This document shows, one piece after another, positions 20,672-31,380 of a DNA stretch of 64,000 nt (position 1 is its first letter; the number at the start of each line of letters is the position of its first letter). Source of the DNA: Candidatus Bipolaricaulota bacterium (GTDB lineage: Bacteria > Bipolaricaulota > Bipolaricaulia > RBG-16-55-9 > DRXL01); assembly GCA_938091745.1 (NCBI GenBank), contig CALLJK010000011.1, positions 1 through 64,000 on the forward strand. Reading direction: 5' to 3'. The translations under genes were made by a program, and so were the position numbers. The notes beneath the pieces were generated by a model. The model made no database searches. It saw nothing but the letters and a program-made list of their open reading frames with translations, and was not told where the DNA came from.

Positions 20672-20771
20672 GGCCCTCACCCCGCCTGACGCCAGACTTC
20701 GTCTGGACTGTTCGCCGTGCCGCCGGAGGCGGCACGATGTACGGTCCAGGCGAAGCCTGGGGGTGAGGGCC
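20672..20771. repeat. 100-bp palindromic element with 12-bp inverted ends
   Basis: Perfect 12-bp terminal inverted repeats (20672-20683 and 20760-20771; GGCCCTCACCCC) enclose three hairpins: CCAGAC/GTCTGG (20692-20706), an 8-bp GC hairpin (20717-20735) and CCAGGC/GCCTGG (20746-20760). The core 20692-20760 is shared with 31094-31164, including the words CTTCGT, GGACTG, TCGCC and GATGTACGGTCCAGGC. The element fills the disA-punA gap, and its right arm GTGAGGG lies at Shine-Dalgarno distance from the punA ATG. Confidence 0.9.
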
Positions 20772-30046: not shown

Positions 30047-30053
30047 AAACGTG

Positions 30054-31205
30054 ATGAACTTTCGCTGCTTTGACTGTCATCAAGAGTTTCCTGCGACGAC
30101 GCGCCAGTGGTGCTGTGCTTGCGGCGGCGCCTTTGAAATTTCAGAGAGGCCGCGCTTTGATCGAGATAAGATTGATACAAAAGTCTCGACGCTCTGGCGC
30201 TATCGTGCTATGCTCCCCGCTTTCAAGGCAGAAAATATCGTCTCGCTGGGCGAAGGCTGGACGCCGCTCATTCAGGCGCGCGCATATGGACTTGAATTCT
30301 TGGCGAAGCTCGAATTTCTCGCACCCACGGGGTCGTTCAAAGATCGCGGCACGACCGTGCTCGTGAGCTTCTTGAAAGAGTTGGGCGTGACAGAAGTCGT
30401 CGAGGACTCTTCGGGCAACGCTGCGGCCAGTCTTTCAGCGTACTGCGCGCGGGCAGGGATTCACTGCAAGATCTTCGTGCCGGCGGGCGCTTCCCCAGCG
30501 AAGCTCACGCAGATTCGCGCCTACGGCGCAGAGCTCATTCCCATCGAGGGTCCGCGCGAGAACGCTTCTCGCGCAGCGCAGCGCGCGGCGCAAAGTTCGT
30601 ACTATGCGAGCCATGCCTACAGCCCGCTGATCTTAGAGGGAACAAAAACTCTCGCTTATGAAGTGTGGGAGCAGCTTGGCAGGCGTGCCCCAGACGCGAT
30701 GCTCTTCCCCACCGGGCACGGAACGTTGCTTTTAGGAGCATATTATGGCTTTCGCGATCTTTTAGAAGCTCAGCTCATAGACAAAATGCCCGCGCTGCAT
30801 GCTGTGCAAGCTGAAGCCTGCGCCCCGCTGTACAAAATCTATACAGAAAATCTCACGGAGTTGCCTGATATCCCTCAGGGCGAGACAATCGCCGAGGGGA
30901 TTCGCATTCGTCGTCCTGTTCGGTGGAAAGCGATTCTGCGGGCTGTACGCGAGACGGGCGGCAGCGTCGTCACCGTGAGCGAGCGAGAGATTCTTATTGC
31001 ACAGCGCGAGCTGGCGCGGCAGGGGCTCTACGTTGAGCCGACCTCAGCAGTAGCTGTGGCAGGGCTACATGCTGCGCGTGGGCTTCACCTTCGCCAGACT
31101 TCGTGTGGACTGCTCGCCTTCGCCGGCTCCGCCGGCGAAGATGTACGGTCCAGGCAAAGCCTGGTCATCCCCCTGACGGGGAGCGGGCTGAAAGCGCCGT
31201 TTTAG
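30054..31205 (+). CDS. thrC: Threonine synthase, with a palindromic repeat inserted near the C-terminus
   Basis: 383 residues. An N-terminal zinc-ribbon-like start (CFDCHQEF ... CCACGG) precedes the PLP domain, with GEGWTPLIQA, the Schiff-base lysine in PTGSFKDRGTTV and SSGNAAASLSAYCARAG. It converts O-phosphohomoserine to threonine. Near the end the family-typical VIPLTGSGLKAPF is preceded by about 25 residues encoded by a palindromic element (31094-31164) kept in frame. The promoter sits directly against ATG 30054, so the longer upstream frame is excluded and the mRNA appears leaderless. Confidence 0.92.
   Translation: MNFRCFDCHQEFPATTRQWCCACGGAFEISERPRFDRDKIDTKVSTLWRYRAMLPAFKAENIVSLGEGWTPLIQARAYGLEFLAKLEFLAPTGSFKDRGTTVLVSFLKELGVTEVVEDSSGNAAASLSAYCARAGIHCKIFVPAGASPAKLTQIRAYGAELIPIEGPRENASRAAQRAAQSSYYASHAYSPLILEGTKTLAYEVWEQLGRRAPDAMLFPTGHGTLLLGAYYGFRDLLEAQLIDKMPALHAVQAEACAPLYKIYTENLTELPDIPQGETIAEGIRIRRPVRWKAILRAVRETGGSVVTVSEREILIAQRELARQGLYVEPTSAVAVAGLHAARGLHLRQTSCGLLAFAGSAGEDVRSRQSLVIPLTGSGLKAPF
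31094..31164. repeat. Palindromic element inside thrC, second copy of the 20692-20760 core
   Basis: Three consecutive hairpins: 31094-31108 (CCAGAC arm, one mismatch), a perfect 10-bp stem 31118-31127 / 31131-31140 and CCAGGC/GCCTGG at 31150-31164. It shares order, arm sequences and the GATGTACGGTCCAGGC connector with the copy at 20692-20760. The middle hairpin differs in sequence yet keeps full pairing, which points to selection on structure. It is read through in frame as part of threonine synthase. The 12-bp terminal repeats of the other copy are not present. Confidence 0.85.
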
Positions 31206-31292: not shown

Positions 31293-31380
31293 CATCTCTG
31301 AAAAATGGCAAACCCATCGTGAGGTGGGGGCGCAAAGCTTCGGGTCTCTTGTAGTGTAGACGGCCGAGCTGCCAGAGATG
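31293..31380 (+). ncRNA. c-di-GMP-I (GEMM-I) riboswitch aptamer
   Basis: The aptamer follows the GEMM-I consensus closely. P1 is a perfect 8-bp stem (CATCTCTG 31293-31300 with CAGAGATG 31373-31380). It is followed by an A-rich joint, GGCAAACC, a 6-bp hairpin capped by the GNRA loop GTGA (CCCATC-GTGA-GGTGGG), GCGCAAAGC, a second arm with GGTCT...AGAC, and the closing GAGCTGCC. These are the ligand-binding and tetraloop/receptor features of the class. It lies between a strong promoter and genes for a processive glycosyltransferase and a deacetylase-like protein. Confidence 0.93.

Follow-up and report, generated by a model that had tools for sequence, protein, structure and literature searches.

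Palindromic repeats in bacterial genomes

In-frame palindromes within conserved genes are known mainly from Rickettsia and its relatives (PMC10969869). A second source describes the Rickettsia palindromic elements (RPEs) as 100-150 bp long and as lying within open reading frames (ORFs) whose frame they do not destroy, and RPE-4, RPE-6 and RPE-7 are reported there to replace one another at orthologous sites (PMC3767692). The frequency of RPEs in ORFs is given as unusually high, and a similar process elsewhere is considered conceivable (PMC10969869). REP and BIME sequences are small palindromes in many-copy mosaics associated with RAYT (Y1) transposases (PMC3733652, PMC2817692), REPs being 20-40 bp long and extragenic (PMC3733652). 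MITEs such as ERIC/RU-1, NEMIS and RUP are short non-autonomous inverted repeats that are sometimes fused to genes in frame (PMC10969869, PMC2759123).

The element considered here was found in a window, i.e., the whole stretch of 64,000 nucleotides that was analysed (C11:1-64000), of a Candidatus Bipolaricaulota genome (G000; 1.74 Mb, 91.5% complete). The closest named relatives of this genome are Candidatus Bipolaricaulota metagenome genomes, and all the genomes used are drafts, metagenome-assembled wherever the record titles were seen. An insert within the thrC gene of the window is very probably one copy of a clade-specific, non-autonomous and mobile palindromic repeat. This repeat forms a hairpin of ~70 nt that is poor in stops and whose arms are exchangeable. 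No paper in the open-licence part of PMC, the only literature covered, contained ‘Bipolaricaulota’ and ‘palindromic’ together, which is weak evidence of absence.

Like RPEs and their Wolbachia counterparts, the element is a multi-copy palindromic repeat with a stable hairpin, found between genes as well as in ORFs with the frame kept. As with RPEs, its hosts include conserved genes and different elements occupy one site in different species. It differs from RPEs in its host, which is Bipolaricaulota rather than Rickettsia or Wolbachia, and in its length of ~70 nt instead of 100-150. Further differences are the exchangeable arms, the nesting in other palindromes, the use of all three frames, a consensus free of stops in six frames, and the formation of an RNase P arm. 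Because of its length, its host and the lack of a shown sequence link, it is not filed as an RPE; it behaves like one but has not been shown to be one, in the absence of a sequence comparison with RPEs.

With REP and BIME sequences the element shares small palindromes, mosaic combination and many copies. Unlike REP/RAYT systems, it is ~70 nt long, it lies in coding sequence at 9 of 32 places, and Y1_Tnp (PF01797) is absent from G000 (91.5% complete), whereas the same search was positive in 5 of 14 control genomes. The traits shared with MITEs are short non-autonomous inverted repeats, in-frame gene fusion and, in copies with two A-type arms, inverted repeats at the termini. No target-site duplication was visible by eye at disA-PNP, argS, gatB, thrC or recG, but the loops are too diverged for the element boundaries to be placed. 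In contrast to MITEs, no parent transposon was found (PF01797 search only), and a large share of the copies (9/32) lies inside conserved genes.

The two copies in the window

The host gene thrC (30051-31205, + strand) encodes 384 amino acids from 30051. Its best match to the NCBIfam models for threonine synthase has an E value of 5.8e-86 and falls below the curated cut-offs of those models, and Foldseek matches the ThrC fold to the threonine synthases 2zsj and 1uin. Directly 3' of thrC the window carries a c-di-GMP-I-GGC riboswitch (RF03167, 65.8 bits; 31298-31377, + strand), and sequence similar to this riboswitch region is also present 3' of thrC in G005 and G008.

A sequence-only reading had proposed related elements at 31094-31164 within thrC and at 20692-20760 between genes. 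Both are present at these positions and fold far better than shuffled sequences. In thrC, the A-core-A element recognised by the covariance model R1 (31094-31164, + strand; 80.3 bits, E 7.3e-18 genome-wide) has a central hairpin of 10 bp with the loop TCC (31118-31140, + strand; from sequence and fold), and its RNA fold has a z score of -5.9 against dinucleotide shuffles (0/200 shuffles as good). The proposed extent is correct for the A-core-A part but not for the start, as the insert is composite. A B-type arm half (CATGCTGCGCGTGGGCTTCACCTTCGC; 31068-31093, + strand) comes first, which matches with few differences the GCACGCTGCGCGTGGGCTTCATCTTCGCC arm seen in L074, L076, L078, L080 and L081. 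The whole insert, as delimited by arm comparison with other copies and loop comparison with relatives, spans 31068-31164 (+ strand), i.e., ThrC residues ~340-371.

The intergenic copy lies between disA and the purine nucleoside phosphorylase (PNP) gene. Its A-core-A element (20692-20760, + strand; 101.2 bits) has a central hairpin of 9 bp with the loop GGA (20716-20736, + strand; from sequence and fold) and an RNA fold with a z score of -8.4 (0/200 dinucleotide shuffles as good). Together with an outer palindromic shell, GGCCCTCACCCC...GGGGTGAGGGCC (20672-20683 and 20760-20771), the copy occupies 20672-20771 (+ strand). The central hairpins of the two copies, CTTCGCCGGC-TCC-GCCGGCGAAG in thrC and CGTGCCGCC-GGA-GGCGGCACG here, differ in sequence yet each pairs perfectly, just as had been claimed. 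An unfiltered run of the covariance model found only these two strong places in the window, the next match having 14.7 bits (E 0.18). The disA-PNP element is present in G000 only; disA and the PNP gene almost adjoin in G002, G005, G007 and G009, are separated by a short gap in G006, and the upstream gene is a different one in G008.

The thrC insert adds residues in frame before the C-terminal TGSGLK, as the sequence-only reading held, but its estimate of about 25 added residues needs revision: the insert encodes ~32 residues versus ~10-15 in the loop of relatives without it, a net gain of ~17-22. ThrC orthologues were compared in nine family genomes (G004 has no orthologue), and the insert was absent from the relatives, in keeping with the length comparison suggested earlier. 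The loop holds the R1 element in G000, other, CTCTCCC-type palindromes in G001 and G003, and ten residues with a small palindrome still inside in G005; it is short, with no evident palindrome, in G002 and G006-G009. An AlphaFold2 model (30-sequence alignment, mean pLDDT 90.6) places residues 348-366 (pLDDT <50) between a predicted helix (339-349) and a predicted strand (371-374), and hence bears out a low-confidence loop where a surface loop had been suspected, although surface exposure was not computed. The element would have replaced or enlarged the loop that joins the helix to the last conserved strand, ahead of PLTGSGLK. The insert would be translated as an extra flexible loop; both translation and tolerance are inferred.

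Modular build, pairing and lack of stops

The copies have a modular build, with a central hairpin of variable sequence and exchangeable flanking arms. Arms are of type A (CCAGACTTCGTCTGGACTGT.. / ..ACGGTCCAGGCGAAGCCTGG), type B (GCACGCTGCGCGTGGGCTTCAT..) or a third type (the CAAGCTTCGCTTG arm), and the outer shell GGCCCTCACCCC...GGGGTGAGGGCC often encloses the element. The length is 70 nt in 38 of 66 copies, with a range of 62-87, and ~100 nt is reached only with the outer shell. Terminal inverted repeats are present in A-A copies, and A-B copies lack arm-to-arm pairing as judged by eye. The three-hairpin form described earlier remains possible, since each arm can form a hairpin of its own, but the minimum-energy fold is one long hairpin.

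Pairing was assessed in 66 places (63 distinct sequences, best strand), which are mostly top-scoring places of the genus and not a random sample, in an alignment that is fitted to model R1 and so biased towards pairing. Of the 565 core-pair cells, 556 (98.4%) hold a standard pair, as against 86.3% on average and 90.8% at most in a control in which the 3' halves were redistributed among the copies. Three core positions are changed on both sides in many of the copies (TA/GC 34/25; GC/AT 52/9; CG/GC 38/21). The arms showed no excess of pairing in this comparison (1204/1304, 92.3%, versus a control mean of 93.1%), hence the evidence from covariation is limited to the core. The earlier inference of selection on structure stands in so far as core pairing is kept through compensatory change; it does not extend to selection on the RNA, as a palindrome mechanism at the DNA level could suffice.

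The copies are also poor in stops. Among the 66, 28 are open in all six frames versus 4.3% of dinucleotide shuffles, and the consensus has zero stop triplets on both strands. Taken together, the protein copies use all three reading frames, with peptides of the types PDFVWTV.., Q(T/A)S(S/P)G.. and RLRLD...

Copy number and distribution

Model R1 was built from eight sequences, including the thrC and intergenic copies. It gave at least 55 matches in G000 at E<=1 on both strands, corresponding to at least 30 places, and at least 21 at E<=0.001. R1 scored only 150 of the 340 first-look candidates for this count, so further copies may exist. A blastn search of G000 with a 141-base query around the thrC copy gave 30 matches at E<=0.001, and two places found by blastn only (GatB and C4:6536) bring the total to about 32 (at least 32). 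The genome-wide count that the sequence-only reading had called for confirms numerous copies. Its author had allowed that the idea would fall if relatives carried the same residues without a repeat, or if just two copies were similar by chance; neither is the case.

The 32 places comprise nine in frame in proteins, one in RNase P RNA, 14 within 100 nt of tRNA or SRP genes and eight other intergenic ones. Neighbouring ORFs were scanned for five of these eight, and two different genes flank the copy in all five; the possibility of a copy breaking a gene was rejected for these five on that ground. At the L118 intergenic copy, a named family was found on one flank only, and the window copy, L074 169718 and L117 are intergenic by gene or ORF layout only.

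The element is present in six of six genus genomes, at different sites and with E values down to 1.6e-23. A phylum-wide scan with the model (100 genomes, Bipolaricaulota only, E<=1e-6, stricter filters) detected it in ten, namely the six genus members, three of the four other family members and one genome outside the family, which is of the same order and has a single match (8.8e-9). Viral contigs contained no match to an exact 22-base pattern taken from the arm.

In-frame copies in protein genes

Nine proteins of G000 carry a copy in frame: ThrC, GatB, ArgRS, 20S proteasome beta, an HdrA2-like protein, an SbcD-related phosphoesterase, RecG, a CCG protein (cysteine-rich-domain protein) and a carbonic-anhydrase-like protein. 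NCBIfam matches support eight of the nine hosts, and the carbonic-anhydrase-like protein has a sub-threshold Pfam match only. The copies in the CCG protein (CM E 0.038) and the carbonic-anhydrase-like protein (CM E 0.0073) are weak calls. With eight proteins besides ThrC, two of them the weaker calls, the parallel to RPEs drawn from the thrC copy alone holds in behaviour. The proteasome beta copy is N-terminal, just ahead of the start of the family match (residue 46), and is likely to lie in a propeptide; the RecG copy sits in a linker. In-gene copies were recognised by the open frame running through them, and detection therefore favours in-frame copies.

The gene-by-gene comparison with relatives excludes four of the nine (proteasome beta, HdrA2, the CCG protein and the carbonic-anhydrase-like protein). 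The GatB insert is found in G000 only; the gene is shorter in all eight relatives that have gatB, with a small palindrome at this place in G002. Likewise, the ArgRS insert (~28 aa) is this element in G000 only. G004 carries another palindrome at the same place, and the other six aligned genomes are short or moderately longer there. In G005, G003 and G009, RecG has an older palindrome of the shell type (ALTPSPSP.. or similar), and in G000 the element is nested inside such an older shell.

The phosphoesterase loop (HGD..IGHEHP; L244-L249, L251, L253) was located by pattern in eight genomes, G008 and G009 being missed. It is different and longer in each of G000-G005 and G007, with in-frame inserts; six of the seven long loops are plainly palindromic, that of G002 is partly so, and the loop is short in the outgroup genus (G006). 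An unoccupied site ending in the terminal letters of the element had been expected here, an idea that was dropped because some kind of palindrome is present at this site in almost every genus member.

A second palindrome family (CCCTCACCCC / CCTCTCCC..GGGAGAGG), with peptides like ALTPSPSP..ERERG, is also found in frame (L148, L152, L197, L199 and L200, in ThrC and RecG) and hosts the first family.

In the relatives, ten places with long open frames were picked from 45 examined, and all ten have a match to a conserved Pfam family. The matches are to TGT, class I tRNA ligase, LipB-type, Asn synthase, MutL, HypF, PseudoU synthase, ABC (two places) and metallophosphatase.

RNase P RNA and tRNA spacers

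Cyanobacterial rnpB carries repeat insertions in a peripheral arm. In the RNase P RNA considered here, the element likewise occupies a peripheral arm; unlike the cyanobacterial repeats, it makes up the whole P3 arm as a long hairpin family-wide, and the same kind of element is also found in protein genes. RF00010 matches nine of ten family genomes. P3 is this element in eight of the nine (G000-G005, G007 and G009; 78-137 nt including arm variants), and a 23-nt hairpin in the outgroup-genus G006. The arm follows the P2 strand GGGCCG and precedes the conserved AGGAAAGTCC; it was assigned as P3 from P1/P2 complementarity in the sequence, as the Rfam alignment begins inside the element. In P12, G003 and G005 carry members of this element family, and G000, G007 and G009 carry other palindrome types. 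RNase P RNA is a candidate case of a selfish element turned structural part of an essential RNA. The open-licence PMC literature gave nothing relevant on RNase P with palindromic inserts, which is weak evidence of absence.

At the rnpB P12 loci (L230, L231, L233, L234, L236), several palindrome families occur, depending on the species. A molybdenum cofactor riboswitch lies ~170 nt from an element copy, and a fluoride riboswitch just 3' of rnpB (L075:2271-2442 and L077:983-1050).

The element also fills tRNA-tRNA and tRNA-SRP spacers, some of them exactly (L070, L071, L122, L125, L129 and others). The tRNA-Asp/tRNA-Phe spacer is occupied in G000 and G005 in opposite orientations. Similarly, the tRNA-Ser/SRP spacer is occupied in G000, G002 and G003, with the orientation in G000 and G003 opposite to that in G002. 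A typical genome has ~45 tRNA genes. If this number is assumed (the genes were not counted), tRNA neighbourhoods amount to ~0.5% of the genome, and 14 of 32 places is therefore a strong excess.

Spread of the element and alternative explanations

Many copies, presence or absence at orthologous sites, kept frames, stop-poor sequence and core pairing through double changes have all been shown, as have arm swapping, nesting in other palindromes and opposite orientations in one spacer between species. On the best explanation, the element moves about the genomes of a single Bipolaricaulota family and persists wherever a short hairpin is harmless, i.e., in tRNA spacers, intergenic gaps, protein loops, a likely propeptide and the peripheral arms of RNase P RNA. 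Harmful insertions would be removed by purifying selection, which is an inference. Movement has not been seen and is inferred from orthologous sites that are occupied in some genomes and unoccupied in others; it may depend on an enzyme acting in trans or on hairpin-guided template switching. A different in-frame palindrome in another phylum, with close relatives unoccupied or differently occupied, makes such spread testable, and with it the gain of new loops and arms by proteins and a ribozyme.

Alternatively, the element could in the first place be an RNA hairpin with a function, such as the processing or stabilisation of tRNA or mRNA, that selection maintains, with the in-gene copies as mere spill-over. 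This appears unlikely overall, though it would account for the 14 of 32 places that have a tRNA or SRP gene no more than 100 nt away, some of which fill the spacer exactly, for relatives occupying the same spacers (tRNA-Asp/tRNA-Phe and tRNA-Ser/SRP) and for P3 in eight of nine genomes. However, no Rfam family covers the element, its orientation varies between species within the same spacer, and copies lie in unrelated protein loops in all three reading frames; mere tolerance near tRNAs may suffice. For the tRNA-spacer copies, a processing role is a live alternative.

For the in-gene copies, the kept frames and stop-poor sequences, neither of which is needed for bypass or splicing, leave hardly any room for inserts that are bypassed or removed instead of translated, in the manner of introns or of the byp elements of mitochondria, which are bypassed. 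The very stable hairpins inside highly conserved genes such as those of ArgRS and GatB would suit such a process, but the inserts are situated in loops that vary in length and can accommodate additional residues. That the loop peptides are adaptive additions selected for protein function is highly improbable as well. The ThrC and phosphoesterase loops have each been occupied repeatedly, as adaptation might predict, yet the occupants differ in sequence, family and frame among close relatives and the loops of the outgroup genus are short, a sign that whatever fills the loop is tolerated. An assembly or binning artefact or chance similarity might be raised, given draft genomes and named relatives with MAG in their record titles. 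It can practically be dismissed, with the element at different sites in six of six genus genomes (E to 1.6e-23) and orthologous sites that differ coherently.

Under the preferred reading of a mobile palindromic repeat, nesting, arm exchange and flipping together suggest copying or recombination that depends on hairpins. The ends of the element often fall on host sequence resembling CTGG, a mere hint of microhomology with no test against chance. A broader and still tentative possibility is a transposase-free ecology of palindromes, in which modules would insert preferentially into existing hairpins, swap arms and cores, flip in place and replace one another at permissive sites by replication template switching. 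Protein loops would be continually renewed in this way, as would tRNA spacers and the arms of RNase P RNA, and the P3 of this essential ribozyme would have been rebuilt from selfish DNA family-wide.

In the MutL gene of G004 (L213:1272-3050), two elements stand in tandem, and that of G005 (L146:776-2662) holds one, apparently in the same linker by sequence.
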